In this document: one piece after another, positions 4,758-28,526 of the stretch
How positions within the stretch are numbered: position 1 is the first letter of the stretch
How the letters are laid out: each line of letters begins with the position of its first letter
Notes under the pieces: model-generated
What the model saw: only the letters and a program-made list of their open reading frames with translations
Told to the model about the DNA's origin: nothing
The model's database searches: none
Assembly (NCBI RefSeq): GCF_000230995.2
Contig: NC_019973.1
Span: forward strand, 6,090,001-6,154,000
Length of the DNA: 64,000 nucleotides
Direction of reading: 5' to 3'
Source of the DNA: Mesorhizobium australicum WSM2073
GTDB taxonomy: Bacteria; Pseudomonadota; Alphaproteobacteria; Rhizobiales; Rhizobiaceae
Program-made: the position numbers and the translations under genes

Positions 4758-4831
4758 GCGGGTATGATGTAATGGTAGCCTGTCAGCTTCCCAAGCTGAA
4801 CGCGCGGGTTCGATTCCCGCTACCCGCTCCA
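4758..4831 (+). tRNA. tRNA-Gly (anticodon CCC)
   Basis: The acceptor stem GCGGGTA pairs with TACCCGC at 4821-4827. The anticodon stem TCAGC/GCTGA encloses the loop TTCCCAA, giving anticodon CCC. The T arm contains GGTTCGATTCC, and CCA is encoded at 4829-4831. Length is 74 bases including CCA. The accessory island begins immediately downstream, so this may be its insertion site; I did not find a second copy of the tRNA 3' end at the far side of the island. Confidence 0.95.
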
Positions 4832-4971
4832 GTCTTGTCGGACGACATAGAAGTGTGGACTCCGTCGCAGAAGGTTGGACCCGTGATCGCGGCGTGCTTT
4901 TAGGCTGATTCTGCAATTTTCTGTACGCTGTCGCAGATAAATCGGCCAAAGCGCGGACCGAATGGCGCCGG

Positions 4972-5403
4972 CTAGGCTGGGCGCCTTTGGCCGATCTCCG
5001 ACGCAACGCGCCGAGCAACCTCCTCCGCCTTTCGCTGGGATCCCAGTTCGCACTCCCAGGCGACGATCACTTTCCAGCCAAGCTCCTCGATGGCCGCAGT
5101 GTTTCGCTGGTCGCGCTGGACATTGCGGTCGAACTTCTCCTGCCAGAATGGCGTCTTGCTCTTCGGCGTCGACGCGATCTTGCATCCAGCATGGCGATGC
5201 CAGAAGCAGCCGTGTACCAAAATGACGGTCTTGAATCTCGGGAGGGCGATGTCCGGCTTCCCTGGCAGGCGCCGATAATGCACACGGAACCGCAAGCCAA
5301 GTGCATGGAGCGCCCGCCTCAGTGCCAGTTCCGGCGACGTGTCCTTCGACCGGATGCGCGACATCCGTTCCGAGCGTTGCTCTGGGGAAAGGAAGTCGGC
5401 CAC
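4972..5403 (-). CDS. vsr: Very short patch repair endonuclease Vsr
   Basis: This 143-residue protein cuts beside T:G mismatches that arise when 5-methylcytosine deaminates, starting repair to C:G. The family features are all visible: RMSRIRSKDTSPE near the N-terminus, KPDIALP with the catalytic aspartate, HGCFWHRHAGC with the zinc-binding and catalytic histidine region, and the WECEL end. The frame is open to 5505, but the family starts just before DFLSPEQR, so GTG 5403 is preferred. This puts it 8 bases after the preceding stop. It is the last gene of the operon headed by a cytosine-C5 methylase, its usual partner. Confidence 0.92.
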   Translation of the reverse strand: MADFLSPEQRSERMSRIRSKDTSPELALRRALHALGLRFRVHYRRLPGKPDIALPRFKTVILVHGCFWHRHAGCKIASTPKSKTPFWQEKFDRNVQRDQRNTAAIEELGWKVIVAWECELGSQRKAEEVARRVASEIGQRRPA

Positions 5404-5411
5404 CGCTGTCG

Positions 5412-8400
5412 CTACTCCTCTCGAGGCAGTCGGGTCTGCAGAAGCTCGAAGAACGGGAAACCGCGGATGATCTCTCCCGGAACGTCGAACGACTTGTACA
5501 GGCACTGGTGGTTCGCTAGCGTCTTCACGCGCTCTGCGACCTCGCCCGCGCTTGCCGCTAGCCCGAGCGCGGACAGCTCTGCCGCCGTGACGTTTGGGAC
5601 CTTGTGCACGAACCAGGTCAGCAACGGCTCGCGATAGTCGGTAGCACCCGCCTTGAAGTGCCGCAGGTATTGCGAGGCTAGGATTATACCAGTGCCGAAC
5701 TCACGACCCTGGAGAAGTAGCTTTCGGAGTACGTCGAACTCATAACGCATGATGTTGTCAGCTTCGTCGACCAGCAGGTACGAGTCGATTGCCCGGAGCT
5801 GCGGGTTGCTTCCGAGGAATGGCCGCTTCGGCGTCCTCAGCATGTTCTCGTAGAACATGTTCAGCATCACCGCCACGAGCATGTTCTTGCTGTGATCGTC
5901 CTGCCCGAGGGCATCCAGCGCGATCACAACGACGCCGTTGAGGAACTGGTCGAACGGTACGGTCCGCGTCTGATCCGGCTCGAAGATCTCCATATCCATG
6001 AGATCGTCGATGATCGCCATTGGCGAGTCGGACTTTCCGTCCAGAATCGCAGCATAGGCCGCGTGGACGTCGCGGAGCGTCGGGGGCGCCCCTTGCGGAG
6101 CTGCGTCATATGCTTCCCGCACCGCGCGCTTGAGCTTATCCCTCTGGACCGGGCCGATGCCGGGATAGATCTTGCCAAGCACGTCGGCGAAGAAGCGAAA
6201 CCGGTCGAGCCAAGGTGTGGGGACGTCACCGATGGTCCTAGTGTCAAAAAGGTTCAACGGCAGGCGGTGGGGGCGCACCACGCGCGCGCCCGTAGCCGCG
6301 ACGAAATCCTCGCTGCTGTAGTCCCGCTTGTAGTCGAAAATGAGGAAGCGCGGTCGTATCCCTCGGTTCGCTGGACCTGCAGCAGAAATCTGCGCGATGA
6401 GCGACTTCAGCAACTGTGTCTTGCCTGTCCCGAGGTCCCCGACCACGCCCATGTTCAACTGGTTGAGCCTCGTGTCCGAGATATTGAGCGATAGCTCCCT
6501 CGGTTTGAAGCCATCGACGGCCTTTCCAACCTCAAGGACGACCCCGCTGCCTTGCTCCTCCGCGTTGCAATCCACGGCCGCCGAGGGCGAATTAGTGACA
6601 ATGGAGATGGCTGGCGGCAACGTCGGTGAGGCCGGATCGCTTTCCGGTCCATTGCTTTCATCTGGTGGCGCTTCGACCGGGGGCGACGCCAGTGTCGTTG
6701 GCTTCCCGCTCTCGTCGGAGTCAGCCTTCGCTACCTGGCCAGCGGGCACGGGCATGAGCGCCCAGTCGCCCACGCGGGCCTTGACCATGGCGTAGAAGCT
6801 CGAAGGATCGCCCGCCACGATCTGGCCCGCGTCCTCGCGCCCTATGACGATCGTCTCATCGAACCCATCACCATCATGGTCGCGCGGCGCGCTCGATGGC
6901 GATTCGTCTACAATGACAAGGCGGCCACGCTGGTCGATCTCGACACAGTCATCGCCGTCGAGGATCGCTTTCGCGACTCGTTCATGCAGTTTCGACCATT
7001 CGGCGGAGTGCCCTTTGACATCGTCCTGTTGGCTGTAGACCCGCATGCCGAATCCGATGATCGAAAGCATCAGGTGCTGGAAAGCCAGCCCCCAAAGTCG
7101 GGGCTGATCGGGATGGGGTGCCATCGCGTGAAGCAGCGATGATAGTGCCTTGGCCTGCTCGAGCGCCTCGACGGCATCGCCTGCCGCAAAGGAAGCCGTG
7201 GGCCTGCACTTGACCTCTATCGGCGTCAGCTTGATGCGCAGCCCGCCGGCGAAGTCGATGCCTAATACCATCAAGTCAGGTCTTAGAAGCGTCAGGTCTT
7301 TCCGGTCCTTCCCGAGAGTACGGCAAAGGTCCCCGATATATCCTCGGAATGGATCGACTGGGACCACGATCGCGATCGCCGGCTCGTCCTCGCTTCCCTT
7401 GAGCACAGGGAGCACTCCACCGGAACAACCAGCCTCCGCCCGGAACTTGTCCTGAAGGAGCCGGACGGCAACGAGGACGCCAAGGTCACCCGTCGCGCCC
7501 GCATCGTCGCCTGCGAGGCCCTTGATCGTCGGAATGCCCCGCCGAGCCACCTCGAGCAGCACATCCTTGACCTTGGCTGGTTCTATGCCTTTGCAGCCCG
7601 GCAGGCGGTCGAGGGCTTTGGCAAGCGCTTCCCGGTCGGCATCGGTCACTTGCGAAATGAGATAGTAGCCATTTGTGTCGCCGGAGCGGTGGGAATAGGA
7701 CGGCAACTCATAGTCCCAGAGGTAGGCTCCATCGAGCCAGCCCCCCAGGAAGCATGCGGGATCGATCGCCGATGATGATACTGCCACGAAGTCGGTCCGC
7801 CGTCCCTGCAGCATGTGCCTTACCTCGTGCACATTAGGGGCGAATTGCAGGCCGACTCGGGTTGCCGACAGGTTCTCCATTGCTGCGGTCAATCCACCGA
7901 TCTTGTCGGCGAGAACATCGCCGGACTGTGCCGGCGGAGTGGATTGGCGGGACTCATTGAGGAATATGCGCGGCAGCTGCCGGCGGATCCGGTGCCGTGA
8001 TAAGGCGCCGAAGCCGAGCGGGGTCCGCTGATCCACTGCCGCGATCCCCGGTTCGGTCATGTCGAGCTGCGCAATGATCCCGAGGTCAGGGATGCTGCGG
8101 GGTGGCTGGACGCTGTACCAGCGAACGGCATTCCGCGTATCTTCGGATAGGTTAGCGATCTTGGCATCATCCGGGCGGGCATCATCCGTTCTGTCGTCGA
8201 ATATCTCGACCAATCTTTGTCCTGTTGCTCGCGAGCGCGGCCGCTTCGCTTCCGGCTGGAAGCGTGTCGTGCACCATTCGATGAGCCCGTCGTTGCACGC
8301 ATCCGTGGCGCCACCGGCACTTGACACAGCGATCGAGAATACCGGCTTGGCGGCAAGCAGCTCGGAGACGTCATCTAGCGCCCTGACGACCTGGGCGGCG

Positions 8401-10925
8401 CTGAAGCCGACCGATATGCCGCCAACGCTGATTCCGAACTCGTCGCCAAACGGGGCGCCCATTGACCGGCGAGCAAGGCTCGCGAGGTTCGACCCGTTCC
8501 AAAGCACTGACCAATAGTCGGTGCCATTTTCGACCGCGAGGTACTCGACCTGATCCACCCCCGATGGCGATCGCACGAACAAGGTCATGATATCGGGGAC
8601 GCAGTCAGGGTCGAGCACACTGGCGGCAGGGCATGGCTTGCCTTGCTCGTCGGCGTCAGACAGGACACCCTGCGCCACCACATGCCAGCCCACCCGCAGT
8701 GGATGGAAGGGAGAGAGCAGGATGGCATCCGGCACCCGGGTCAGGCTGCGACCGCTTCCATCAAGCGAGGACACGGCGACGACATCGCACCAGGAAGCGA
8801 CCTCGGGTGCTGCAGCTAGCCAGGCATGATATGCATCAACATACCGCTCGACGACCGCTCTGAACCCTTCATCGCGCGCGGCCCACTCGCCAAGTCGGGC
8901 GATCTCGAAGACCCCGGACTGGTCGCCGTCCCCACGCACGCGATTGGCAATCTCCTCGCGCAAGGCGAGGAATTCCTCCGGCGGATTGAATTCGTCAGGC
9001 GCGGGGCGCGGGTCGCAGATGAACTTCCCTCCGGACATGATGGGCCCAGTCTCGAATCCCCACCTTGGCGGCGCCCAGTGCTCGCCATAGTCCTCCGCTA
9101 GCACAATTGGCTGGTAGGAATGCCGAACGGATTCGGGCGCCAGCAGCCAGTCCTGGAGCATCGTCGATCGGACCGCGCGGTTGACCTGGATAACCGCCTT
9201 GGCGTCGAAAGGCTCGATCGGGCGCCTGTTGGCCCGTATGAGGCGTTCGAACTCGCTTCGGCACCCAACTTCAGGCACGTCTTCGCAGGTCAGGTAGACG
9301 CGGCAAGTCTCATTGGAGAACGAGCCATCCCGGATCGGGCGGCCAAACCTGAAATCGACCTGCAGGTTCCCTTCCGCCTCGACCTCGAGCTGGAAGATCG
9401 AATCCCGGAGGCCGCGCACCACCAGTTGCGTAGCCGCCTCGGCCCGCCCGTCCGCTTGCTCCGCAGTGCTCGTCGCCGATAGCTCTAGCTCAATTCCGGG
9501 CGAAACAAAGACGAGGAGCTCATAGCGACCTTGACCTGGCAATGTAAGGCTCGATTCCCAGTCGGCTCCATTTCGCGCGGCACCCCTCGCGGGCTTGCGA
9601 GGACCGGTGAACTTCCTTGCTAGACGACAACCTACGAGTATTCCGGGTTGCCACGTCGCTAGCGACACGACCTTAATCGAGCCCGGCTTGAATCCCTCGG
9701 CCGTCGCCTTGTAGCTAATCGGATTCTTGTGCTGCGGCGGAGCCGCGTCCGACAGAACCTTGTCGGAGTCGGCCTCGATCTCACCTATCCCCTTTGATCC
9801 ACCGGCCGGTGTGCGCTGCACCTCGACTCGGGCACCGCTCTGATCGCTACCCTTCGTTGTGAACTTCAGGTCGACCCGATCCGTTACAATGGCAGGCATT
9901 GCCTTCCCAAGCGCAGCAATTGCGTTGACGCATTCCATGACAATGTCGCCAGAGACCGCCGGCTCCTCGGCGAGTAACTCCGACCACTTCTCGACGTCCA
10001 GAAAGCTCCACCAGTCTGGCGGACGGCCAAGCTCCAGGCCCTGCATCGGCGCATAGAAGGCCGCGGTCGCACGATCGAAGGCGCTCTGGACCTGCCAGCC
10101 TGCCCTTATATGGGCGTGGAACTGCTCGAGCGCGGCCCGCTCATCGTCCGTGGCACCGTCTGCCAGACGGTCGATGCCATTGCGGAACCCGTCAGCCATC
10201 GCGTCGGCAATCTTGTCCAGCGTTCCAAGCTGGTCGCGAGCCGACAGGGACCCATCGCGCCGTGGAGGCACCCCGCACGCTAGGCTCACTCCAAATCCAG
10301 CCGAGAGGCTGAGTCCCCGGTCGATCGCGAACAGCCGGGCGACGACGTTCCACGCCCCCTTGCGGACAGAGCGGTCGGGGTCCACTTCGTCGGCCGCGCG
10401 AGCAGCGGCTTCGACTAGCAGGCGACCTTCTTCCACCATTGCCTCGGTCAAGCCGGCGCGCGCGAGGCCATCGGAGACGACGCGTTGGACGAAGGCGTCG
10501 TCCCACCAGCTCTCGAAAGTTGCGTTTCCTCCGTTGCTGGCCTCCGCGACCCCAAACCTGTCGGTCGTCGACGACACGGACAGGATACTGTGCTCGCCCG
10601 GCGGCACGAGTGCCACGAAGCTCGGCAGCTCGGGTAGGTTCCTGAGGTCCAGCAAATGCGTTTCGTCACATCTGCCCGACTCACCGATACCAGGGTTTCC
10701 CCCTGGCAGCTGTGCACGCGGAACCTGCAGAAGATAGGGCGGCCGCGATCCCGCAACAGACTCGGCTTCGCGGACGAGATGGTCGAACACCTTCGAGAGG
10801 ATCTCGAGCGGCGGCCCGTGGAAGACAAGCCTAACCTCAGCCTGCCCCGTAGTCCTGCGATCCGGTGGCGCGATGCCTACCTGCGCAGAAACATAGTCGG
10901 CAAGCGCTTGCGCGATTGCATTCAT
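5412..10925 (-). CDS. Giant DptH-like protein: PD-(D/E)xK nuclease motif plus HerA/FtsK-type ATPase
   Basis: This is an 1837-residue protein. The first ~1200 residues match nothing I recognise. A nuclease-like motif lies near residues 1220-1240: RPDLMVLGID, then a strand and PIEVKCR (D...ExK). After a proline- and acid-rich linker comes an ATPase domain with Walker A GDLGTGKT near residue 1495, Walker B YLLVDEAD near 1718, and ASQYLRHF as a likely sensor. This matches HerA-FtsK translocases and the size and design of DptH/DndH. It starts with ATGA overlap on the preceding gene. I infer that it is the translocating nuclease of a restriction module. Homology to DptH is inferred from architecture only. 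Confidence 0.65.
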   Translation of the reverse strand: MNAIAQALADYVSAQVGIAPPDRRTTGQAEVRLVFHGPPLEILSKVFDHLVREAESVAGSRPPYLLQVPRAQLPGGNPGIGESGRCDETHLLDLRNLPELPSFVALVPPGEHSILSVSSTTDRFGVAEASNGGNATFESWWDDAFVQRVVSDGLARAGLTEAMVEEGRLLVEAAARAADEVDPDRSVRKGAWNVVARLFAIDRGLSLSAGFGVSLACGVPPRRDGSLSARDQLGTLDKIADAMADGFRNGIDRLADGATDDERAALEQFHAHIRAGWQVQSAFDRATAAFYAPMQGLELGRPPDWWSFLDVEKWSELLAEEPAVSGDIVMECVNAIAALGKAMPAIVTDRVDLKFTTKGSDQSGARVEVQRTPAGGSKGIGEIEADSDKVLSDAAPPQHKNPISYKATAEGFKPGSIKVVSLATWQPGILVGCRLARKFTGPRKPARGAARNGADWESSLTLPGQGRYELLVFVSPGIELELSATSTAEQADGRAEAATQLVVRGLRDSIFQLEVEAEGNLQVDFRFGRPIRDGSFSNETCRVYLTCEDVPEVGCRSEFERLIRANRRPIEPFDAKAVIQVNRAVRSTMLQDWLLAPESVRHSYQPIVLAEDYGEHWAPPRWGFETGPIMSGGKFICDPRPAPDEFNPPEEFLALREEIANRVRGDGDQSGVFEIARLGEWAARDEGFRAVVERYVDAYHAWLAAAPEVASWCDVVAVSSLDGSGRSLTRVPDAILLSPFHPLRVGWHVVAQGVLSDADEQGKPCPAASVLDPDCVPDIMTLFVRSPSGVDQVEYLAVENGTDYWSVLWNGSNLASLARRSMGAPFGDEFGISVGGISVGFSAAQVVRALDDVSELLAAKPVFSIAVSSAGGATDACNDGLIEWCTTRFQPEAKRPRSRATGQRLVEIFDDRTDDARPDDAKIANLSEDTRNAVRWYSVQPPRSIPDLGIIAQLDMTEPGIAAVDQRTPLGFGALSRHRIRRQLPRIFLNESRQSTPPAQSGDVLADKIGGLTAAMENLSATRVGLQFAPNVHEVRHMLQGRRTDFVAVSSSAIDPACFLGGWLDGAYLWDYELPSYSHRSGDTNGYYLISQVTDADREALAKALDRLPGCKGIEPAKVKDVLLEVARRGIPTIKGLAGDDAGATGDLGVLVAVRLLQDKFRAEAGCSGGVLPVLKGSEDEPAIAIVVPVDPFRGYIGDLCRTLGKDRKDLTLLRPDLMVLGIDFAGGLRIKLTPIEVKCRPTASFAAGDAVEALEQAKALSSLLHAMAPHPDQPRLWGLAFQHLMLSIIGFGMRVYSQQDDVKGHSAEWSKLHERVAKAILDGDDCVEIDQRGRLVIVDESPSSAPRDHDGDGFDETIVIGREDAGQIVAGDPSSFYAMVKARVGDWALMPVPAGQVAKADSDESGKPTTLASPPVEAPPDESNGPESDPASPTLPPAISIVTNSPSAAVDCNAEEQGSGVVLEVGKAVDGFKPRELSLNISDTRLNQLNMGVVGDLGTGKTQLLKSLIAQISAAGPANRGIRPRFLIFDYKRDYSSEDFVAATGARVVRPHRLPLNLFDTRTIGDVPTPWLDRFRFFADVLGKIYPGIGPVQRDKLKRAVREAYDAAPQGAPPTLRDVHAAYAAILDGKSDSPMAIIDDLMDMEIFEPDQTRTVPFDQFLNGVVVIALDALGQDDHSKNMLVAVMLNMFYENMLRTPKRPFLGSNPQLRAIDSYLLVDEADNIMRYEFDVLRKLLLQGREFGTGIILASQYLRHFKAGATDYREPLLTWFVHKVPNVTAAELSALGLAASAGEVAERVKTLANHQCLYKSFDVPGEIIRGFPFFELLQTRLPREE

Positions 10926-12445
10926 GGCTGCCCCCTTCCGCTAACCGGCGACAACCGGAACGGCGGCACGAGCAGCATGCCGCTCTCAGCATCAGGGCTG
11001 TCGAGCACGAGGCCGAGCATCCTCAGCTGCTGGCCGAGGTCATTCTGGGGGATGTCCCTGTGGGCCATGCTGACACCATATTGCGCCAGATGCTGGGCGA
11101 GCCGGTGGACCGATCGAGGGCCGCCAACGCCAGCAAGGGAACAATGCACCAGTGCAAGTACGGCCACCGGGCCGAGAGACACGATCCACGGGCTATTCGC
11201 ACTGGCGCCAGCCTTCTTCAGGACGTAACCTTGGTCGTAGCCCCTGAGCGTGGGATTAGCTGTTTGGCGCTGACCAAGCACGTGTCGGACGAACTCGTTA
11301 ATATTCGAGCCGATGCCTTTCCGGCAAAGGAGCGTGCGCGTTTCCCTGTCCTCTAGACTGGCAACGACATCCCGAACCCCGGTCCCTTCGAGGCGAGTCC
11401 GGTTTGCGCGGACTTGGTCGCAAAGTTCCGCCAGGCCATGCGAGGACGACAGGCCATCCGCTGGCGCGATCCCTAATGAATCCAAAGCCCACAGGGTTGT
11501 ATTAATACCGAGGCGCGCAGCAAGGAAGCGGGAGACGCTGTCTCGGATCGAGGGCAAGGCCTTGTTTCCGTAGGGAAGACAAGCGAGGCGCTCGGGGTAC
11601 AATGCAACGCGCGAGGCCTCCGCGCCCTCGGGACCTTCTCCGTCTAGGGCCGAAGACAGCGCTATCCACGCGCGAGAGTGGACCTCGCACAGCCAAACGA
11701 CGTGGGCGACCGCACCTAGGCGAATGACAGCCTCCAGCAAGCTGGTCCACTGGCGGCGCGTCATTGCCGACTTTGCCGCGATCACGGCCCGGACGTCATG
11801 GACGAACTGGCGCGCGGGAAACACGTCGATGCTGGCGTCATCCCTCGCCATTACGGGGTCGGCGCGCGGGGTTGCTAGATGCCAGTTGGGCTTCGGCACC
11901 CACGCCTCCACCTCAGCTTGCAGGAACCGGGCAAACACATCATCCTCGTTGCCAACTGACAGCGCCTCGAAGAAGGCTCGCCAGATAGCCTCTGCTGCAG
12001 CCGAATCGCTGGACCCCAGCCAAACCATTCGCTTGACAAGCTGGCCGGCGGTCCAAGGATTGCCAGCCAGTCGCGCCGACCCAGAGAAGACGCTCAGCTG
12101 CGGCACCAGCGGCATCACCTGGAGGAAGCGCTTGGTCGATTGGTTCGGGAGCTTTGGGCTTTCAAGGATAGAGCCGAGCAATGAGCTGAAGGAATCCGGG
12201 TCAAGAGTGGAGCGGTCAGGTCCCTTTCCGCGTTCCCGAGCACGCTTGATCGCGCGGTCGAGATCGCGGCCGCTCTGTGGCACCGTACGTTCGGTCGCGC
12301 CCTCGAGGCCGATCACCCGGTACACGGAGGAGAGGATCACCTCCGAGCTGGCGTATTCCGGCGCTGGCGTCATCGCTAGCCGTGCCTTCGAGTAGGCTTC
12401 GTGCGAGTTCGCCCATGGTGCATCGCGGAACTGCGCAAACGTCAT
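10922..12445 (-). CDS. Uncharacterised protein in DptG position
   Basis: This is a 507-residue soluble protein with no motif I recognise. It overlaps both neighbours by ATGA, so translation is coupled with the ATPase before it and the giant nuclease-ATPase after it. In phosphorothioation-dependent restriction operons the equivalent middle gene is dptG, also of unknown fold and around 400-500 residues. Its place and length are the only reasons for comparing it with DptG. It could be an adaptor joining the two ATPases. Confidence 0.55.
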   Translation of the reverse strand: MTFAQFRDAPWANSHEAYSKARLAMTPAPEYASSEVILSSVYRVIGLEGATERTVPQSGRDLDRAIKRARERGKGPDRSTLDPDSFSSLLGSILESPKLPNQSTKRFLQVMPLVPQLSVFSGSARLAGNPWTAGQLVKRMVWLGSSDSAAAEAIWRAFFEALSVGNEDDVFARFLQAEVEAWVPKPNWHLATPRADPVMARDDASIDVFPARQFVHDVRAVIAAKSAMTRRQWTSLLEAVIRLGAVAHVVWLCEVHSRAWIALSSALDGEGPEGAEASRVALYPERLACLPYGNKALPSIRDSVSRFLAARLGINTTLWALDSLGIAPADGLSSSHGLAELCDQVRANRTRLEGTGVRDVVASLEDRETRTLLCRKGIGSNINEFVRHVLGQRQTANPTLRGYDQGYVLKKAGASANSPWIVSLGPVAVLALVHCSLAGVGGPRSVHRLAQHLAQYGVSMAHRDIPQNDLGQQLRMLGLVLDSPDAESGMLLVPPFRLSPVSGRGQP

Positions 12446-14544
12446 CGCCGCCCAGTCTCCCTGAGCAAGCCAAATCCCTCCCGCCGCTGCTGGACAGTGA
12501 TTCCGCCAGTGCCGAGCCTGATCTCGGCGCGAGGTAGTACCACCGCATCCCGGACGATCGGACCGCCAAGGCGAGCGCCCGTTGTATCAAGTAGCGCAAG
12601 GACGGACCGCGGAAGGGACGCGACCGACATGCCGCGATCGACCTCCTTCACTGCCTTGAATAGGTCGTAGGTCAGGGCGATCTTCTGGGCTGACGCGCCA
12701 TCGCCGACTTCCAGGAAGCGGAGCGGCGAGCGTGGGCGTCCCTCCTGCACGGTATCTGTTGGCTGAACGTGGCGCCGTTGGACGACAAGCGTCGCGCGCC
12801 TCGTCGGTGGGGGCAATGGCTGCCCGAACGTCGTCGTAAGTGACACCTCAAAGTCCTGATTCTTGTTAAGGAGCCGCTCTACATCCCGCGCCACTTCGAA
12901 GACCCCATCGCCGCCATCGTCCACGATCTTCTGGAATTCACGAAGCACCTCAGCATCCAAGACAGTAGCGGTCCTTGCGCCAATGCTCCGCCGTACCAAG
13001 CGGCAGGCAAAATCACGGACTAGACGCTGCACGCGAGTGGCGACGGCAGGTTTTTTCCGGCGCACCTGCTGCTTCGAGAGGAAGGAATCCAGCTCAGCAA
13101 GCCTACCGAGGAGGTCGGTCTCGATGCCGGAGAGCACGCGCGACTTCTTGAGGTGGTCCAGCCCCTCAGCGACCGAGCGGCTAAACCGTGTGTCGAAGTC
13201 ACGGAGCACGTAGGTCCTTCCGTGCGTTGCCGCCGCCTCGCTTTCTGGGCTTGCCAGCGCCGGGTCGAGCAGCTGGTCGAAACCGTCAAGTAGGCCGGAG
13301 ATCATTGTTGGCAAATAGGAAGCTCTACGAGACGCAAGGAACCATTGCAGACCCATGGCAGTGTTGTTTTCCTTGAGGCCGAGCTCGGTGAGGTCGCGCA
13401 GCAGGGCCTGACCCGCCTCCTTGTCCCAGCCGTGGAAGAGGGCGTGCTGGTATTGCGAGCCGACGAGCCGGAAGAGGGCGGTGGAGCTGTCCTTGCGCGG
13501 GCGAGCGTTTGCCACGGCCTCCTGGTCAAGCTGCAGGAGTGACGCCGCCCATTCGCATGGGGAACTTTCGTCGAGGGAAGCATCCTCGCGATGCCCTGCC
13601 AGCAGGTATGAAACGAGCGAGAACAAGTCACGGAAACTCCACCGCTTCCCACTCCCTATCTCGAACCACCTTAGCATCTGCTGCAGCGCTGCTGCCGGCC
13701 GCTCCTGCGCGAGATGCGACCGGCTTCCGCAAAATGGGCAATGCGCTCCGGCGGCACACGTGCCCGGCTGCGGCCAGAGACTGGCGTCAATGGCCTTCCG
13801 GAAGATCTCGACGGCCGGAGCCGGGTCGCCGTTCTCGGTACCAGCGAGCAGCGACTCCATGTCCATCGGCCACACTGCAACGTCCGGATAATCGTCGAGA
13901 GGCCAGCAGGCAGGAGCGTCGGGCGACAGGCTTACCGCCTGGCTGGTGCATTCCAGAAGCCTGCGCGCTTCGTCCGCGCCTGCCTCGATGGCAGTTATAA
14001 GCGCATCGTCGAGCACGCCTCGGTTTACGCAGCAAAGGTAAAGCTCGCGCGAATCCGTGGTTGCGGATGCCAGCTCGCTAAGGAGCATCATGGCCGGCGA
14101 CTGGCCCGACGAGCCTGCGATGACCGAGGCGTCCTGAACAATGGAAAGTGGCAGGCTTCTGGTCCGCGATGCAAACGCCCCTGCATCGATCGTGATCGTC
14201 CGCGGTACTTTCTCTCCCTCGGGTCTGAAGGCGATCTCAAGTGCGCTGAGCAGCTTACCGTCGCAGCCGAGGGCAGCGTCGAGCCAGATCATCGTCGACT
14301 CGATTGCTTCGGTCTTGCCGTTGCCCGGCCCACCGACGAGGAGAATGACCCGCGGCGTTCCCTCCTTGCCGGCGCCAATGTCCGCGCACCATTGCTGGAG
14401 GCGCGATAGCAGGTTCGTCTTGAAGACCGCAGCACCCGGCCGGCCGCTTTTCTCATCGAACAAGCGTCGGACACCGCCGGAGCGGTTTCCCGCCCACCTG
14501 AGCAATTGCGCAGGGTAAGTCGCCGCGGTTTCGGTGATCTCCAT
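12442..14544 (-). CDS. P-loop ATPase in DptF position
   Basis: This is a 700-residue protein with Walker A GGPGNGKTE near residue 72. A cysteine cluster (GTC, HCPFCG, then SRSH) near residues 262-278 looks like a zinc-binding knuckle. The C-terminal half has no recognisable domain. It begins 3 bases after the methylase stop and overlaps the next gene by ATGA. DptF in phosphorothioation-linked restriction is also an ATP-binding protein at the head of a three-gene set, so I infer an analogous regulatory or target-sensing role. AAA or STAND subclass cannot be settled by eye. Confidence 0.6.
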   Translation of the reverse strand: MEITETAATYPAQLLRWAGNRSGGVRRLFDEKSGRPGAAVFKTNLLSRLQQWCADIGAGKEGTPRVILLVGGPGNGKTEAIESTMIWLDAALGCDGKLLSALEIAFRPEGEKVPRTITIDAGAFASRTRSLPLSIVQDASVIAGSSGQSPAMMLLSELASATTDSRELYLCCVNRGVLDDALITAIEAGADEARRLLECTSQAVSLSPDAPACWPLDDYPDVAVWPMDMESLLAGTENGDPAPAVEIFRKAIDASLWPQPGTCAAGAHCPFCGSRSHLAQERPAAALQQMLRWFEIGSGKRWSFRDLFSLVSYLLAGHREDASLDESSPCEWAASLLQLDQEAVANARPRKDSSTALFRLVGSQYQHALFHGWDKEAGQALLRDLTELGLKENNTAMGLQWFLASRRASYLPTMISGLLDGFDQLLDPALASPESEAAATHGRTYVLRDFDTRFSRSVAEGLDHLKKSRVLSGIETDLLGRLAELDSFLSKQQVRRKKPAVATRVQRLVRDFACRLVRRSIGARTATVLDAEVLREFQKIVDDGGDGVFEVARDVERLLNKNQDFEVSLTTTFGQPLPPPTRRATLVVQRRHVQPTDTVQEGRPRSPLRFLEVGDGASAQKIALTYDLFKAVKEVDRGMSVASLPRSVLALLDTTGARLGGPIVRDAVVLPRAEIRLGTGGITVQQRREGFGLLRETGRR

Positions 14545-14547
14545 GCG

Positions 14548-15873
14548 CTAGCCTAACGCCGCCATGGTCGGGCGCTTTCGGGCCTGCCCGAAGACCTTCC
14601 TGCCAATCTCTATCTCGTCGAGCGCCTTGCAGAGTGCACTTCCGATTGCCCGCGCGAGGTAGGGCGGCACCGCGTTACCGACCTGGGTATAGCGAGGGCA
14701 TTCCTTGGTTCGGCGATCGCCGCCAGTGGTGAACTTGCCCTTGAACTGGAACCAATCCGGGAAGGATTGCAAACGCGCGCTCTCACGGACCGTCAGGATG
14801 CGAGGCTCGGAATAATGCAGCACGTCGTCTGGAAGCGTCGTAATCGTTGGCGCCGGTTCAGTCGGAGACATCGGGTAGATGCGGTGTTTCTTCAGTCCGT
14901 AGCCGCGCCGCGCTTCGTCGTCCATGCGGACACCACGCCGGCATTCCGCAAGGATTCGCCCAAAGCGCTCGCGCACGTCGTCGCGGTGCCGGGCGAGGCG
15001 CATGCTATCAGGCTGGCGCTCGTGATCGCCGCGCATAAGGCGTTGATAGCGAGTTGCAGGCTCGCCCCGGCGCGCCTCCTGAAAGCCGCGAGGGGACTCA
15101 GGATCTTCGCAAGGGCGTAGTTGCACTCCGGCGATTTCAAGATCCGAGATCGCTTCCCTGGCGGATATAGCGTCAGGCAGGCCGAGCTGCTCGAGCTGGG
15201 ATGCGCGAACCTCTTCGAGCAGTTCGAAGAGGCGACGAACACCCCCTTCCAGCCAGCCTGCCAGATCCTGCCGGACTCCAATGGCAATGAGGCGAGACCG
15301 CTTCTGCGGCACCCCGAAGCGAGAGGCGTCGACCAGCTCTGCCTCGACCCTGTAGCCAACACCATCCAGGCTCTCGACGAGCCTGTCGTAGAAGGAACGC
15401 TTCTTGGGCGCGGGACCGACCTGCAACTCGACGACGTTCGAGGGCCGATGCACGACGCGCATCCCGGGTACGTTCTCTAGGATGAGGGCCGCGGGCCGGA
15501 TCGCGTCGACCGCTTCGACATATTTGTGGAAAAGCTGGTTTCGCGGGTCATCCTCGACCCGCCGCCCGGCGAAGCTGAAGCCCTGGCACGGCGGCCCACC
15601 CGCGAGCACATCGACCTTGCCGCGCAGCTCCAACAGGTCGGCCTTGTGCTCCTCCAACAGTTCGTCAATGCCCCAAGCACGTTGTTCAAGCCAAGTCGGC
15701 CATTCAAAAGCATGGCCCCTATTGGAGGACTTGGAAACGAAGTTCGCATGGAAGGTCCGGAATGCCATATGGTCGCGCTCAACTGCGAACAGGCCTTGCA
15801 TGCCGGCCATCGAGAGCCCGAGCGACAATCCACCGCATCCAGAGAACAAATCTACGAACCTACGGTCCTTCAT
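14548..15873 (-). CDS. dcm: DNA (cytosine-5) methyltransferase
   Basis: This is a 441-residue C5 methylase with motifs in canonical order: DLFSGCGGLS (motif I, SAM binding), GGPPCQGFSFAGRR (motif IV, catalytic Cys), ENVPGM (motif VI), QKRSRLIAIG (motif VIII) and QVGNAVPPYLARAIG (motif X). The target-recognition region between VIII and IX is long and its specificity cannot be read. I chose ATG 15873 over TTG 15879. The gene heads an operon ending in vsr. It probably marks self DNA for the nuclease module between them, and vsr repairs the mutations it causes. Confidence 0.93.
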   Translation of the reverse strand: MKDRRFVDLFSGCGGLSLGLSMAGMQGLFAVERDHMAFRTFHANFVSKSSNRGHAFEWPTWLEQRAWGIDELLEEHKADLLELRGKVDVLAGGPPCQGFSFAGRRVEDDPRNQLFHKYVEAVDAIRPAALILENVPGMRVVHRPSNVVELQVGPAPKKRSFYDRLVESLDGVGYRVEAELVDASRFGVPQKRSRLIAIGVRQDLAGWLEGGVRRLFELLEEVRASQLEQLGLPDAISAREAISDLEIAGVQLRPCEDPESPRGFQEARRGEPATRYQRLMRGDHERQPDSMRLARHRDDVRERFGRILAECRRGVRMDDEARRGYGLKKHRIYPMSPTEPAPTITTLPDDVLHYSEPRILTVRESARLQSFPDWFQFKGKFTTGGDRRTKECPRYTQVGNAVPPYLARAIGSALCKALDEIEIGRKVFGQARKRPTMAALG

Positions 15874-16199
15874 CGGCAACGCTCATCCAATTCTTGCCCA
15901 GCACTTTGCGGGCAAGCTAAAACGAGGAACCGAACTTCGTTCTTCTTGGGCTCGATAGACGCGAATCTTTCCCCATGCGAGGCCAAGGCATAGCAAGGAA
16001 TGCCAGCCACTTCCACCGAGATTGTGATTGATCTAGCACGATTACACGCGCCGAGACCCGGCGGCCTTCTGGCTCCTCGTCCGTCCTTTGCCTCGCCTAA
16101 CGCGTGGGCCAAGGGCCAAGAGGGCACCCCCTTCGTAAAGCCGCCCACTTAGACCGGATACGCGCGGCGAAAAGAAAGTTACATTGTAGCTGCACTGGG
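15874..16199. other. Leader region of the methylase operon, with one doubtful small ORF
   Basis: No recognisable gene lies here. On the minus strand a frame open from 16148 ends in TGA at 15870-15872, overlapping the methylase ATG as ATGA. That is the same coupling used inside the operon. The last ~48 residues could be read from a GTG, but I see no family resemblance or clear ribosome-binding site. The region should also hold the operon promoter, which I could not locate. Confidence 0.3.
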
Positions 16200-22158: not shown

Positions 22159-24888
22159 TTATTCCAGACCGGAGAATGCCAAACCTCGCAATAAATCTCT
22201 GTGCTGCTCCCGCTCACGCATTGCGGAAATGAAAGCTGCCGTACCCTCCAACTGCCCATCTGGCGAAATCATGAACTCGCCGCCTGGCTGCACGGATTTG
22301 AAAATAAACCCATTTGGTTTGGAAGTGTCATACTCGAACAGGTCGATCTCGCTGTGGTGATCGGAAGCGTTTAGCCCCCAAAGGTACCATGGGGCAAGGT
22401 TGATCGCCGTTCCATTCTTTGGATTGGCAACATAGACATCCTCGTCAGAGAACGGGACGAGGCCCTCGTATTCATGCACATGAATGAACGTCTGTGACGG
22501 ACCTCGCAACTCTCGGAACAGCCCCTTGAAACTTCCCTGGCTAAATCTTTTCGGGGTTACTCCCTCGAATACGCCTAGACAACTGTCGCTAAACGCCTTG
22601 GCAATAACGTTACCCAGCAGACCCAAGAAGCTTACATAGTCTACGTTTGAGCTACGTCCATGTTTTGAATTGGCAATCTGATCAATCCACTGGTTTATTG
22701 TGGGCAAGTGCTTTTGGGTTAAGGGCAGCAACGCTGAACAATAGGGCAGATCGGTGCGTGCGGTCTTAAGGCAATTCTTCAGAATCGCCCAAAGGGGACC
22801 TGCCGAACGATGTCCCATCCCCTTAAAATGCGAGCTGTTCACCTTCGCTAAGGTACAGTGCTCTGCCAGGACCAAGTAGGCTGACAACGTCAGCATTGCT
22901 TCGACCGCTTCTCTACCTCGGTCAAGCCGCCGGAGTGCATCCTTCTCGGACATATACCTGGCCAACGGTGCTGCTGCGGGATAGGGCAGCTCACTCACAA
23001 GCTCGGCTAGCTCAAGCCAATTGGCGCTTTTTGATCGCTCTTCAATCCACTGGATGTCAGCACTGCTCACGAATGAACAGGCTGACGTGCTCGTTCCAAA
23101 ATCAAAGCCGAGATATGTTTCCCCTTGTACTTCTTCGGCAGCAAACGTCATGTCCATGAAAAATGGGTTGCCAACGGCACTGCTTCCGTCTCTCAGATTG
23201 TCCTTCCCATAAAAAAAGCGCGGCTCAGCTGTGCCGTCCTCCCGCACGATCAACTCGATTTCGATCCCTTGTTGGAATACTGCACCCCGTGGAGTTTGCA
23301 CCTTAGTTTCGACAATGTTATGGCGCGATTCCAAGTCATCGGGGTCGAAAGACGACCGCATGAAATAGTAATTCAAGTTGTGCTTGGGCGGTTTGGAAAG
23401 GCGGACCTTCCAGCGCAAAGGTTGGCCCATAAGCCCCCGCAGGCTACTCGCTGCGGGAAGCAATACCGCCTCGTCATATTCCTTTGGCTCGCGCCCGTCA
23501 TCTTTTAGGTTTTCGCTGACTGGTCTAAAGCGCTTTCTCTCAAGCTCTCCTTCATCAGGTCTGAGGAGCAAGCAAAGGCGGTTGTAGGTTACAGCACGAA
23601 AATCACCTTGGCCGCCGGTGTAGTACCGGCGCGCGCATTCAGTCGCCAGGCCCTTCGCCACTATTTCCGCGAAATTCTCGTTTAGCTCCAATATCTGAGC
23701 ATTAACAAGCTGAGACTTCAGATCTCGTTCAAGCAAAGATCGGAGCCACCGGATGTTTGACGATCCTCCTGATAGCAAAACGACCGATATATCTTGCCCG
23801 GCCAGGTCGTCCTTTGACCTGTCAATTGTTCGAGACACCGCATCTCGAAGCTTCTCTGACCACACGCGATCCGTGTAAACTTTCTGTATTTTGGCAGCAT
23901 CTAGCCTCTTGTTCCCACGAGCTGAGCGCTCATCGAACGGATCTACCGGAATTGAAATAGGATAAGGGGCTATCCCCGACAAGTCAGCCGAAAGACTCCA
24001 ATTTGCAATACTGTTACAAATCGCTATCTTCGCGCGCTCAACCTCCTGAAGCAATACCTTCATATGTTTGAAGAACGCCCTCTTCTCCTCGCTCCATTCA
24101 CCCATTTCTTCTTCATCGGCATTCTTGTGCTCATAGAAGAAGGTGAGCGCCTTCCGCACCTTGGATTTCTCTACGCGAGGTCCGATTACCGAGAATAATA
24201 GGTCCTCGGCCAGAATCCTGTTGATGAAGAAACCTCCAACCTGGATAGAGGTCGCGCCTAGAGGCCGTGAGTTGACCCCGCCGCCACTGATGTCGCCAGC
24301 TTTCGTCGTTTCAACCACGGAAACATCAAAAGTTCCGCCACCAAAATCAAGAACCAGTGCGACGTGCTTTCTTTGCTCCGCAACAGCCGGATGGCGTAGA
24401 CCATATCGATAGTACTGGAAGACCGCGAAGGGCTCCGGCATGAAGTCAATCTCTTCGAATTTCCCGTAAAGAGCCTTCTTGATGGATTTTCGATAATGAG
24501 AGAGCCATGACTCGTCTGCGAGTTCAGAGCCCCCGAGGGAGAGAGGCTCGGCGATTAGAATCCGCGTCGGGACGGGCAACCCTTGCGAAGCAAGCCAGCC
24601 GTTTATCTTCTTTAGTGTCTCATCGAAGAAGTCTTTGGCTAACCCTACCGGCGTGCGTCGCGGAACATTAGTCAAGCTGGAACGGCTGACCAAACGGTCT
24701 GGGTCATTGTTGCCGAGTTCGATCTTGAAATCTTCGATCAGCAGTTCAGGAGAGGTGCAACGTTCGCGCGCGTCTCGGCCGACATGCGGCTTTTTCCCTT
24801 CGTAGAACAATGCAGTCGGAATCACGTGGCTCTCGTCAATCCGCGCCAACTGCACCGAACTGACAAATGGTAGTTTCTTCAAGGACAT
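22159..24888 (-). CDS. Hsp70/actin-fold ATPase with unusual motif order
   Basis: This is a 909-residue protein. The N-terminal ~400 residues resemble an Hsp70 nucleotide-binding domain, with HVIPTALFYEG near residue 20, LDFGGGTFDVSVVE (phosphate 2) near 181, and VVLLSGGSSNIRWL (adenosine motif) near 370. The usual N-terminal phosphate-1 strand pair (GIDLGTT) is absent. A matching stretch, YLGFDFGTSTSACSF, appears near residue 593. I chose ATG 24888, which has GGGGAG upstream, over TTG 24936. Hsp70-like proteins of this kind occur in defence islands, but the function is not known. It faces the Hachiman operon. Confidence 0.72.
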   Translation of the reverse strand: MSLKKLPFVSSVQLARIDESHVIPTALFYEGKKPHVGRDARERCTSPELLIEDFKIELGNNDPDRLVSRSSLTNVPRRTPVGLAKDFFDETLKKINGWLASQGLPVPTRILIAEPLSLGGSELADESWLSHYRKSIKKALYGKFEEIDFMPEPFAVFQYYRYGLRHPAVAEQRKHVALVLDFGGGTFDVSVVETTKAGDISGGGVNSRPLGATSIQVGGFFINRILAEDLLFSVIGPRVEKSKVRKALTFFYEHKNADEEEMGEWSEEKRAFFKHMKVLLQEVERAKIAICNSIANWSLSADLSGIAPYPISIPVDPFDERSARGNKRLDAAKIQKVYTDRVWSEKLRDAVSRTIDRSKDDLAGQDISVVLLSGGSSNIRWLRSLLERDLKSQLVNAQILELNENFAEIVAKGLATECARRYYTGGQGDFRAVTYNRLCLLLRPDEGELERKRFRPVSENLKDDGREPKEYDEAVLLPAASSLRGLMGQPLRWKVRLSKPPKHNLNYYFMRSSFDPDDLESRHNIVETKVQTPRGAVFQQGIEIELIVREDGTAEPRFFYGKDNLRDGSSAVGNPFFMDMTFAAEEVQGETYLGFDFGTSTSACSFVSSADIQWIEERSKSANWLELAELVSELPYPAAAPLARYMSEKDALRRLDRGREAVEAMLTLSAYLVLAEHCTLAKVNSSHFKGMGHRSAGPLWAILKNCLKTARTDLPYCSALLPLTQKHLPTINQWIDQIANSKHGRSSNVDYVSFLGLLGNVIAKAFSDSCLGVFEGVTPKRFSQGSFKGLFRELRGPSQTFIHVHEYEGLVPFSDEDVYVANPKNGTAINLAPWYLWGLNASDHHSEIDLFEYDTSKPNGFIFKSVQPGGEFMISPDGQLEGTAAFISAMREREQHRDLLRGLAFSGLE

Positions 24889-25035
24889 TCCAGCACTCCC
24901 CGCTGGATGACAACCACATCGAGGCGTTATCTTCAAGAGGGTTTAAGCAGCGTGAGAATCCGAACCCTTGTTATACACACAAAGCACTAGTGCTGCTCGT
25001 GAGAGGCGCCAAGAATGTGCGGAAATAATGCAAGC

Positions 25036-25171: not shown

Positions 25172-26062
25172 TCACGCTGCCTTCTGCACTTCCGCGATTT
25201 TCTGGAACTCCGCGAGAATGTCCGGATGGCGGTGTGCCAGGTGCCGCACCACCCTGGCGTTTTCGAGTAGCCGGGCCACATAGCCGGTGGCGAGGATTAC
25301 ATCCAAATGATCGCTTCCATAATCCTGCTCAATCGCTTTGAACTCTCGGTCGAGTGTGGCGGATTCGCCCTCCATCATGTCGATCTGCTGTTGGCTTAAG
25401 CCCTTTACCGTCTTGGTGCCCCTCACCAGCTGGCTCTCGGGCGTCGCGGCGACCAAAGATTTCGCGTAGCTGATCGAGTATTTGTTCATTGCCATCATCA
25501 GCTCGGCTGCCTCGATTTGCCGGATCGATTTCAGTTTTTTCAACTCTCCGAACGTGTTGATCGGCACGTGTCTGTCCTTAAGCAAGTCCACGACTTCCGG
25601 ACAGATGCCCTCCAGCAGGCTGCGTTTGTGGCGGATGCTGGTTATGTTGACGTTCAATGCCCGCGCGAGCCGCTCCTCAGACACGCCTTTCTCTATGGCC
25701 TTCAGGATCATTTTGTGTTCTTGGATGATAGCTATCCGGCTAATGCGCTTGTGGTATGTGAATGCCTCGTCTTCGGTGGCCACGAGGCACACGACTTCGG
25801 TCTCGCCACGCGCTCGCAGGATGTCTACGCGTATGTGGCCGTCAAGCAGGTGGAAGCGATTTCTGTCGGTGCTGTCCCTAACCACCACCGGCGGCTCGAT
25901 GATGCCGACCTCGGCAATGGAAGCAGCGATCTGGGCATACTTCACGGACTTTAATACCGAGGGGGTGAGTTGCCTAAGAGGCAGTATCTCATCGATCGAA
26001 ATACGGAGGCTCGCTTTTTCGAACGCGATTTTCACGAGAGCTGTTTTTGCCGCTGTGCTCAT
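25172..26062 (-). CDS. ParB-family protein with RepB C-terminal domain
   Basis: This 296-residue protein has a ParB-N domain: VGIIEPPVVVRD, FHLLDGHIRVDILRA (ParB-box-like) and KRISRIAIIQEHKMI. A helix-turn-helix (EERLARALNVNITSIRHKRS) follows near residue 135, then a helical C-terminus like that of RepB plasmid-partition proteins. It overlaps the preceding ParB gene by ATGA. There is no RepA or RepC nearby, so it is probably not a plasmid replication unit. It may bind the element's own DNA to support recombination or maintenance. Confidence 0.8.
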   Translation of the reverse strand: MSTAAKTALVKIAFEKASLRISIDEILPLRQLTPSVLKSVKYAQIAASIAEVGIIEPPVVVRDSTDRNRFHLLDGHIRVDILRARGETEVVCLVATEDEAFTYHKRISRIAIIQEHKMILKAIEKGVSEERLARALNVNITSIRHKRSLLEGICPEVVDLLKDRHVPINTFGELKKLKSIRQIEAAELMMAMNKYSISYAKSLVAATPESQLVRGTKTVKGLSQQQIDMMEGESATLDREFKAIEQDYGSDHLDVILATGYVARLLENARVVRHLAHRHPDILAEFQKIAEVQKAA

Positions 26063-26952
26063 GGATGTAATGCCTCTAACCGATCTAGACGCTTCGCCAA
26101 ATTCTTGGGCAAGCTCGTTAGCCCCTCGTTGGTGAGAAGGTCCCGGAACTCTTCGTCTTGCAGCAGCCTTCGCAGGGCTTCAGCGATAAAAATGAGGCGG
26201 TTGCTCGCCGCCTGCGCACGCCTGATCAGCAGGCGTTTCCTATCAGTGTCCTGTTGATACGCACGAACGAGGGCATCGGTCGACAGCTTCCTTGGCTTCA
26301 GATGAAGGTTGCTCTTCAGGCGCTTGCCCTGAACGCGCCGTTGCTCCACAAGCCGTTTCGCTGCAAGGAGTTTTCGTCCCCGAAGTAGGTTCTTCTCATA
26401 AGCATTCTGCAGCGCGCTCTGTATATCCTGGTCATCCGCCTCCGCGATATCAAGCGCGACGCTGAAGGGGATCTGGCCAGATTCAACCGCTCGCAGAAGG
26501 CGTTGCTCACCCTTCTCAAGAAGCTTGACCACTGCATGAACGTACTCCGTCGTAAGTCCCGTCTTCCTTGCAATGTCAGCTATCGGGTGCCCTTGCTGTT
26601 TCATTCTGCCGATATCGTTCAGAAGATCGATGGCTTGATGTTTACGCCGAGCGCAATTCTCCACCAGGCTGGCTACGAGACAGTCTTCGGGGTCGGCAGT
26701 GACGACAAGAGCTGGGACCTGCTGTTGGCCAAGCGCCTTGTAAGCCTCCAGCCTACCCTGTCCGCAAACCAGATCGTAATACGGTCCACCCGCCTCGGGC
26801 CGGCGCGCGACTGTAATCGGCCTTTTCAGGCCGATTTCAGAGATGTTGTCGACGATATCTCTGAAGACTCGTTTGTTGCGTATTCTGGGATTGACGACCG
26901 CAATCCTATCGACTGGGATCATCTCAACCCGCTGCGCCGGCATTGCGGTCAT
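26059..26952 (-). CDS. ParB N-terminal domain protein
   Basis: This 297-residue protein begins RVEMIPVDRIAVVNPR. It has the ParB core YYDLVCGQGRLEAYKALG (GxGR-type nucleotide-binding box) and LVENCARRKHQ near residue 95, then a helix-turn-helix DIARKTGLTTEYVHAV. I chose ATG 26952, which overlaps the recombinase TGA by one base, as start; the frame is open to 27231 but only inside the recombinase gene. ParB domains of this type bind CTP and act as DNA clamps. Two different ParB proteins in series after a recombinase point to a dedicated DNA-handling module. Confidence 0.82.
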   Translation of the reverse strand: MTAMPAQRVEMIPVDRIAVVNPRIRNKRVFRDIVDNISEIGLKRPITVARRPEAGGPYYDLVCGQGRLEAYKALGQQQVPALVVTADPEDCLVASLVENCARRKHQAIDLLNDIGRMKQQGHPIADIARKTGLTTEYVHAVVKLLEKGEQRLLRAVESGQIPFSVALDIAEADDQDIQSALQNAYEKNLLRGRKLLAAKRLVEQRRVQGKRLKSNLHLKPRKLSTDALVRAYQQDTDRKRLLIRRAQAASNRLIFIAEALRRLLQDEEFRDLLTNEGLTSLPKNLAKRLDRLEALHP

Positions 26953-28526
26953 CACGCTGCCTCCTCTATGGGAGTTCGTTGCGACATTGCATAGAGGGTT
27001 TCGAGAGTATCGAAACGGTATGCATCGAGTGACAGCCCGTTGTGCTCGCAGAGGCGCAAGACGGCTGTATGCATATCCAAGCGGGGAAGCAGATAGTAGT
27101 CTCGCGGCTGCGCGTTTGTTGGGTCCATGCGTATTGCGACGGTCAAATCTGGATTCAGCGCCGTATCCAACCGCAGCTTCCAGCGAAGTGAACCCGCCCC
27201 AGTATGGAAGCACCTGACGATCACAATGCAAGTGGTGAACTCGTGGTTCACCGTCAGCATGTCCGTTGACGGTTCCTGTTCGACAGTTCCCCCGGCCGCC
27301 CTAATTCCCTCGATCACTTCTGCCACCACATTGGGATGCAGGCGTCGCAGGGCTCGGTTTGTCTCCAGATAGCGATAGTCGTGATCCGGAACGAACCCAA
27401 CGAGAGCATAGGCGCGAAGCAAGCTGCCGAAGCGCGACAGATACGAGCTGCTCGAGGGGCAGTCCTCTGCTTCGTCAATAATGATCCCGGAGAGATAGCC
27501 GTTCCTGGCCAGAATTGTTCCGAGGAGGCCCAGCATGGCCTCGTCCGACAGACGCTCGGACCTTGCTGCTATAATGGATTGTGCCCGGATGAAGGAGTCT
27601 TTGTCGACAATCGGCTCGAACACCCCATTGGCGCGTATCCAGGCATCATCTGGATTCTGAACATGCGACTGTTTGAGCTTGAACGACGTGCGCCCCCACA
27701 CGTTGTTTCCGATGTATTTCTCGTTAATGAGGAGCTGATGGACCGTTCCTCGCGTCCAAGGCCGACCTAGGTCTGACATGACGCCCCGAGCGTTTAAAGC
27801 CTGGGCAATTTCGAGCTCGGAACGGTCCTCAGCTACGAACTTGCGATAGACTTCTCGTACGATGTCGACCTCATGTTCCGGTCCAGGGATCAAGATGACC
27901 CGGTCGGTCGCGATACTTTTTTGTTCGCCGCGGTCAAGTTGCGCTTTCCGACTATGGTTCTGATCGACGAGGACACGCCGCAGACCGTATCCGGCGGAGC
28001 CGCCTTGCCGAAATCCAAGGCGGATCAAATTAGCCTGGCCTGCGAAAACTTTCACGGAGAGTTCGCGGCTATATTCGCCGGCCATCGCCCGCTTGACCGT
28101 CTTCACTATCGAAGAGCCAATGCTGCCGTCGTTCTCAAACTGCTCGGCGCAGTAGTGCACGCGAATTCCCGCGTGCTTGCATCTAAGCTCGATAGCAGCC
28201 GCTTCGTCAGGGTCTTGAAAACGTCCCCATCGGCTGACATCGTAGACAAGGATTGCTGCGTAGTCCGCGCGACCGCTTTCAATGTCACCCAGCAGGGATT
28301 GCAAGGCGTCCCTTCCAACGAGGCGTAGGCCACTTTTGCCCTCGTCCGCATAAGTTCGAACGATCACGAAGCCGCGCGCATCGGCGTACCGCTGTATTGC
28401 CGACGCTTGGTTGTCGGTCGAATACTTCTGGTGTTCGGTCGACATGCGAACGTATTGGGCGGCTCGAATCCTGGAACGCGGGGCCCGGGCTTCGCTCCCA
28501 CCCGTCTGGTTCCAATTGATTACCAT
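26952..28526 (-). CDS. Large serine recombinase (resolvase/invertase family)
   Basis: This is a 524-residue protein. The catalytic N-terminal domain shows AAQYVRMSTEHQ (catalytic Ser in RMST), DEGKSGLRLVGRD, LVYDVSRWGR and GEYSRELSVKVF. A recombinase domain follows, with ARGVMSDLGRPWTRGTV and LINEKYIGNNVW near residues 245-275. The C-terminal third is family-specific. Serine recombinases with this layout integrate or excise mobile elements by double-strand exchange. It starts the operon with two ParB-like genes and has a small gene diverging from it. It looks intact. Confidence 0.9.
   Translation of the reverse strand: MVINWNQTGGSEARAPRSRIRAAQYVRMSTEHQKYSTDNQASAIQRYADARGFVIVRTYADEGKSGLRLVGRDALQSLLGDIESGRADYAAILVYDVSRWGRFQDPDEAAAIELRCKHAGIRVHYCAEQFENDGSIGSSIVKTVKRAMAGEYSRELSVKVFAGQANLIRLGFRQGGSAGYGLRRVLVDQNHSRKAQLDRGEQKSIATDRVILIPGPEHEVDIVREVYRKFVAEDRSELEIAQALNARGVMSDLGRPWTRGTVHQLLINEKYIGNNVWGRTSFKLKQSHVQNPDDAWIRANGVFEPIVDKDSFIRAQSIIAARSERLSDEAMLGLLGTILARNGYLSGIIIDEAEDCPSSSSYLSRFGSLLRAYALVGFVPDHDYRYLETNRALRRLHPNVVAEVIEGIRAAGGTVEQEPSTDMLTVNHEFTTCIVIVRCFHTGAGSLRWKLRLDTALNPDLTVAIRMDPTNAQPRDYYLLPRLDMHTAVLRLCEHNGLSLDAYRFDTLETLYAMSQRTPIEEAA

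Follow-up and report, generated by a model that had tools for sequence, protein, structure and literature searches.

It has been reported that DndFGH forms a 2:2:1 complex whose translocation-coupled nicking is repressed by phosphorothioate, since this mark represses ATP hydrolysis by the complex and so its translocation (PMC11662687). SspFGH causes damage in unmodified DNA and is harmful to cells that do not carry the mark (PMC8092258), and both complexes are toxic without their mark (PMC8092258, PMC11662687). DndFGH has also been described as having no inbuilt modification module and acting alone (PMC10853773). We analysed a stretch of 64,000 nucleotides from Mesorhizobium australicum WSM2073 (NC_019973.1, 6,090,001-6,154,000; hereafter the window), which carries an operon coding for a cytosine-5 (C5) methylase (M), three proteins F, G and H, and Vsr. 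We suggest that this cassette is probably an anti-invader restriction-modification system that combines a DndFGH-type engine with 5-methylcytosine (5mC) as the self mark. The five genes are as follows.

14548..15873, minus strand: M, DNA cytosine-5 methyltransferase of 441 amino acids from ATG (PF00145, E 2.9e-55)
12442..14544, minus strand: F, P-loop NTPase of 700 amino acids, probable DndF homologue (motifs, bridging profiles, AAA+-like model)
10922..12445, minus strand: G, predicted DndG-like DNA-binding subunit of 507 amino acids (structural match to DndG)
5412..10925, minus strand: H, DndH/DptH homologue of 1837 amino acids with a PD-(D/E)xK nuclease motif and a HerA ATPase
4972..5403, minus strand: Vsr, T:G mismatch endonuclease of 143 amino acids from GTG (PF03852, E 1.3e-29)

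A first-pass annotation of this DNA had described five genes packed by ATGA overlaps or gaps of 3-8 bases, and all five open reading frames (ORFs) and their junctions were found in the window. Three bases separate the stop of M from the ATG of F, the F/G and G/H junctions each show an ATGA overlap, and eight bases lie between the stop of H and the GTG start of Vsr at 5403. An alternative, longer Vsr ORF (to 5505) runs into H, and this start is probably wrong because Vsr of a second copy of the operon in the same genome begins at the residue corresponding to the shorter form. The ORF of M opens two codons before the ATG at 15873, with TTG at 15879, and the ATG is probably the start. The set of C5 methylase, F, G, H and Vsr is found again in Alpha-, Beta- and Gammaproteobacteria, as well as in a few metagenome-assembled or single-cell records from other phyla, and the operon is therefore more than a chance arrangement.

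The first-pass annotation had also regarded the three middle proteins as DptFGH-like, which was borne out for H by sequence and for G by structure, and more weakly for F by motifs and bridging profiles. When H was aligned with DptH using hhalign, residues 396-1830 of H matched residues 352-1703 of DptH (probability 99.9, E 2.5e-37), with a score of 344 against 18-21 for reversed and shuffled controls. H also matches 7es4 (DptH) with E 1.8e-48, the PADLOC DndH models over residues 1490-1828 with E 2.7e-65, and PADLOC mad8 with E 1.2e-11, while Pfam sees it solely in the C-terminal HerA part. D1217, E1237, K1239 and the Walker A motif are kept in all 56 aligned H proteins. Judged from these alignments, the homology between H and DptH reaches far beyond HerA and includes a nuclease motif that is both aligned and invariant. 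According to structural modelling, G has the DndG fold, and it has no match in Pfam or PADLOC.

F shows two weak P-loop matches in Pfam, both below cut-off, and its sole PADLOC match is SspF at E 0.07. Walker A (GGPGNGKT) and VNRG are present in 56 of 57 aligned F proteins, the remaining row being a gap, and F appears to resemble DptF in its P-loop, with Asn in the place of Walker B, and in a C-terminal block that is collinear. The direct hhalign comparison of F with DptF is weak (score 34). F is tied to DndF-type proteins through bridging F proteins similar to those of the methylation-associated defence system (MADS), as represented by its PADLOC models; the predicted model of F is AAA+-like (pLDDT 88.1). 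Neither F nor G is named by NCBIfam models or matches the PADLOC Dnd or mad models, and TIGR03236 (DptG), TIGR03237 (DptH) and TIGR03238 (DptF) gave no match from F, G or H at E 0.1, although the controls from G405 match all three. Defence annotation based on models would probably overlook the system, since Pfam, NCBIfam and PADLOC contain no family that F or G matches above cut-off.

Linkage to a C5 methylase and its exchange

In order to reveal how constant the association with a methylase is, we used 55 loci obtained by scanning 84,980 species genomes with a G profile, the scan being limited by a pattern. Three loci truncated by contig ends (L046, L050 and L052) were dropped, leaving 52 informative loci, and L019 was also dropped from the Vsr counts as it is truncated downstream, leaving 51; the loci are not independent, as L022 and L023 are 98% identical over 21.5 kilobases (kb). 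In 51 of the 52 informative loci, FGH has a C5 methylase no more than 0.8 kb away. The first-pass annotation named as refuting its proposal homologous sets that rarely have such an enzyme, and this is not the case. It is positioned just upstream of F (within 0.4 kb) in 47 loci and within 0.8 kb downstream of H in four (L006, L041, L047 and L055). The sole informative locus with no nearby C5 methylase, L048, has an HNH protein after FGH and a reverse transcriptase gene upstream, and its F matches SspF with E 0.00054. A C5 methylase also adjoins FGH in all five loci reached otherwise (the second copy in the host genome, G174, L091, L111 and L116), while the methylase and Vsr profiles gave no match in eight canonical Dpt loci or in four MADS/Ssp-like clusters (G166, G229, G378 and, by gene layout, G396). 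The linkage of a modification enzyme to a nuclease, as in a restriction-modification system, was thus found in 51 of 52 loci, and the nuclease motif of H is invariant.

Of the 51 loci, 40 carry Vsr, in most cases directly after H. Two divergent relatives carry a glycosylase in its place: in L054 an HhH-GPD glycosylase gene overlaps the end of H, its best solved match being 1kea (115 bits; MutY, 99 bits), which may be an enzyme of G-T mismatch repair, and in L047 there is a 119-residue piece of a Mig/MutY-type glycosylase. The remaining nine loci have neither Vsr nor glycosylase, and eight of them keep the methylase.

L091, on a Pseudoalteromonas plasmid (9722-22400), has the divergent order SAM methyltransferase, HNH protein, F, G, a 165-amino-acid protein, H and C5 methylase. 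In L053, F, G and H are broken while M and Vsr are intact, as expected if the nuclease were lost first, though this may reflect a sequencing error. L011 is the reverse case, with M in two frames and FGH intact. Neither L053 nor L011 was used as evidence.

The PCQ and ENV motifs were found in 49 of 50 aligned M proteins, the remaining row being a gap, and all 23 aligned operon-linked methylases carry the PDDxxH and TTGG subfamily motifs. By comparison, all four unlinked C5 methylases checked in the genomes of L006, L046 and L048 are without TTGG and PDDxxH, with at least three more unlinked enzymes there outside this check. PADLOC recognises both M (best E 2.2e-44 to the DrmMII models) and Vsr, and the latter matches Escherichia coli Vsr (1cw0) with E 3e-32. 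CCWGG, to which DrmMII is linked as Vsr is to Dcm sites, was considered as a candidate target site and is not claimed.

The methylase is exchanged more freely than F, G and H. First, distances among F, G and H correlate at 0.97-0.985, compared with 0.71-0.74 for M against F, G or H (47 sequences). Second, in an H tree rooted on DptH sequences, five loci sit among those with the common methylase while their own methylases group elsewhere (supports of the nearest group in the H tree: L006, 0.994; L019, 1.0; L025, 0.992; L026, 1.0; L055, 0.849). Judged from these trees, there have been four or five replacements of the methylase, and the newcomer was a C5 methylase every time; the count is given as a range because L026 and L055 share one new methylase type. 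Finally, L024 carries both the common type and the L026/L055 type, and its sister L026 has the new methylase, then a decayed remnant of the common type, and then F. When sliding windows of F, G and H were compared with methylase type in search of a mark reader, leaving out eight divergent loci (G174, L091, L054, L047, L042, L045, L040 and L038), there was no signal among 294 windows (best partial correlation 0.43, worst -0.53, mean -0.02, s.d. 0.18), and no local swap of F, G or H was found beside the replaced methylases of L019 and L025.

Proposed mechanism and rival explanations

Based on these observations, we propose that M would methylate its target sites across the host genome and that F, G and H would assemble into a complex, in which G binds DNA and F serves as a nucleotide-binding regulator. 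H would travel along DNA by its HerA motor and nick or cut it with its PD-(D/E)xK nuclease. By analogy with the phosphorothioate systems, 5mC from M would restrain the engine on self DNA, and unmethylated invading DNA would be damaged. Vsr, or a Mig-type glycosylase, would handle the T:G mismatches that arise from deaminated methylcytosine.

A rival explanation is that FGH works as a stand-alone counter-invader machine sensing infection by other cues, as has been proposed for DndFGH (PMC10853773), with M and Vsr travelling along for shielding from other restriction, for gene regulation or for addiction; in the presence of a Vsr-like protein, losing a C5 methylase can do harm (PMC12907096). Such a machine would fit the replacement of M, for which no corresponding change could be detected in F, G or H, as well as L048 and the frequent decoupling of DndFGH from dnd modification genes (PMC10853773). 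However, the methylase is near FGH in all informative loci but one, is kept in most of those that lack both Vsr and glycosylase, and gives way only to other C5 enzymes, and we therefore consider this explanation unlikely.

It is also conceivable, though quite improbable, that 5mC marks self and FGH, in the manner of BREX, stops unmarked phage DNA from replicating but does not cut it. SspFGH suppressed phage DNA replication and degradation products were not visible (PMC8092258), but the same study describes how SspFGH damages DNA in cells without the modification, and the invariance of D1217, E1237 and K1239 in H argues for cutting. We doubt still more strongly that Vsr is the nuclease of the system, attacking mismatched DNA or DNA without the mark of M while FGH gives targeting and translocation: its frequent place directly after H and the SOS induction by a Vsr-like protein in Caulobacter lacking its methylase (PMC12907096) point that way, but 11 of 51 loci have no Vsr, one of them (L054) having instead a glycosylase gene that matches a G-T mismatch enzyme best among solved structures, and H carries a nuclease motif of its own. 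A type IV-like role, in which FGH attacks DNA with modified cytosine and M has another function, is barely credible, since FGH is constantly linked to a C5 methylase whose motifs are intact and would thereby expose host DNA, even though no reading domain was identified that would fix the direction of discrimination.

Returning to restriction guided by a 5mC self mark, the pairing of FGH with a C5 methylase looks like one of several mark pairings rather than the single substitution of the first-pass annotation, in which 5mC would have replaced phosphorothioate, because in the MADS-like cluster G166 a related FGH-type module stands with a specificity subunit and a methylase that acts on adenine. 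We tentatively extend this, at somewhat less than an even chance, to a general FGH engine wired to different marks, which here is restrained by 5mC from the PDDxxH/TTGG methylase subfamily, with Vsr or the Mig-type glycosylase as an accessory against deamination. Since very different methylases of the same subfamily replace one another, this engine would read a shared site or the mark itself.

Mobility, prevalence and neighbouring genes

The host genome (6.2 Mb, one contig) contains a second complete M-F-G-H-Vsr operon at about 0.96 Mb (L070, 9845-20779), about 7 kb from a tyrosine integrase gene, with an F 54% identical to that of the window and a methylase of another type. The only two C5 methylase matches in the genome are the M proteins of these two copies. 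The first-pass annotation had stated that no dnd/dpt modification genes are present. This stands for DndC, which was not found in a genome-wide search, and the other dnd genes were not searched for. Among 50 locus-bearing genomes, DndC was over cut-off in one, with weaker matches in three.

When the window was compared with L001, the cassette (4970-16025) was 91% identical at the DNA level, and no further match was detected between window positions 1-40000 and L001 at E 1e-10. The cassette adjoins tRNA-Gly on its Vsr side in the window and tRNA-Ser on its M side in L001, and a tRNA gene lies within the fetched stretch in 13 of 44 loci scanned. The cassette is mobile, and its prevalence is low: among 397 genomes of the host's order, the host genome is the sole clear match, with one other marginal, and 369 genomes in the class of G405 gave one clear and one marginal match. 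The stretch shared by L022 and L023 surrounds the operon in records of Bordetella hinzii and Solimonas variicoloris, and points either to a recent transfer across class boundaries or to records that are mislabelled or contaminated. The cassette and its surroundings in the window are as follows.

4758..4831, plus strand: tRNA-Gly, left edge of the island (ARAGORN)
4970..16025, no strand: extent of the cassette as a transfer unit, from the identity to L001
17027-21350, plus strand: Hachiman pair adjoining the cassette, HamA (PADLOC E 5.9e-101) and HamB (E 0)
22159-24936, minus strand: protein of 925 amino acids with a weak Hsp70/DnaK-like match
25172-28526, minus strand: two RepB/ParB-like genes and a serine recombinase
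30780-36915, plus strand: Tn7-like genes, namely a TnsA-like ORF (by position and eye), TnsB-like (Mu-transpos_C, weak), TniB/TnsC and TniQ

A Tn7-like element extending from tRNA-Gly to about 37.5 kb may carry both the cassette and Hachiman as cargo. A second copy of the tRNA-Gly 3' end was not found in the window or the four flank stretches tested, nor was a 16-base inverted match (up to two mismatches) between candidate ends. Relatives of the serine recombinase and of one RepB also occur in L013. The transposition and Hachiman genes of the window have no match in the 55 loci at E 1e-5, and the cassette is therefore tied to neither.

Comparison with known systems

The window operon shares with DndFGH/DptFGH the F-G-H order, a homologous H with nuclease motif and HerA, and a G predicted to have the DndG fold, whereas its FGH is linked to a C5 methylase and Vsr instead of dnd genes. 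DISARM class 2 likewise contains a C5 methylase within a multigene defence system, and M matches DrmMII models, but F, G, H and Vsr do not match the DrmA, DrmB or DrmC models of PADLOC. MADS has a related G/H module beside base methylation, and its mad7 and mad8 models also meet DndH and SspG models. However, the MADS-like cluster G166 has an N6 adenine methylase with its specificity subunit, while the window cassette has a single C5 methylase and Vsr and no kinase; mad2 and mad5 have no PADLOC match among F, G, H and Vsr, and the sole methylase of the operon is the C5 enzyme. The H proteins of G166 (L076), G229 (L078) and G378 (L080) also match DndH models and their G proteins match mad7 or SspG models, and thus mad6-8, SspFGH and DndFGH look like one superfamily.

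The SspABCD-SspFGH system has a comparable module of three genes, coding for a protein with Walker A, a G protein and an H of the FtsK/HerA kind, and this module damages DNA without the self mark (PMC8092258), but the mark of the system is single-strand phosphorothioate and the window F matches SspF only at the marginal E-value given above. Modified cytosine has already been proposed as a stand-in for phosphorothioate, in the CxC-DndE cytosine methylases (PMC10853773); those are CxC ABC ATPase/DndE systems rather than DndFGH. A module related to FGH joined to adenine methylation is already known from the MADS-like cluster. The set of C5 methylase, FGH and Vsr is not described in the literature titles and abstract openings covered, and its proteins may be among the DndFGH of PMC10853773.

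If one engine indeed functions whether the mark is phosphorothioate, adenine methylation or 5mC, restriction engines would be portable between mark chemistries. The partner in this clade would make a common base mark, and because 5mC is easier to add, remove and map than phosphorothioate, the cassette offers a clean test of self/non-self discrimination by a DndFGH-type complex. Compared with the account in PMC10853773, in which DndFGH acts alone, this clade supplies a near-constant modification partner.

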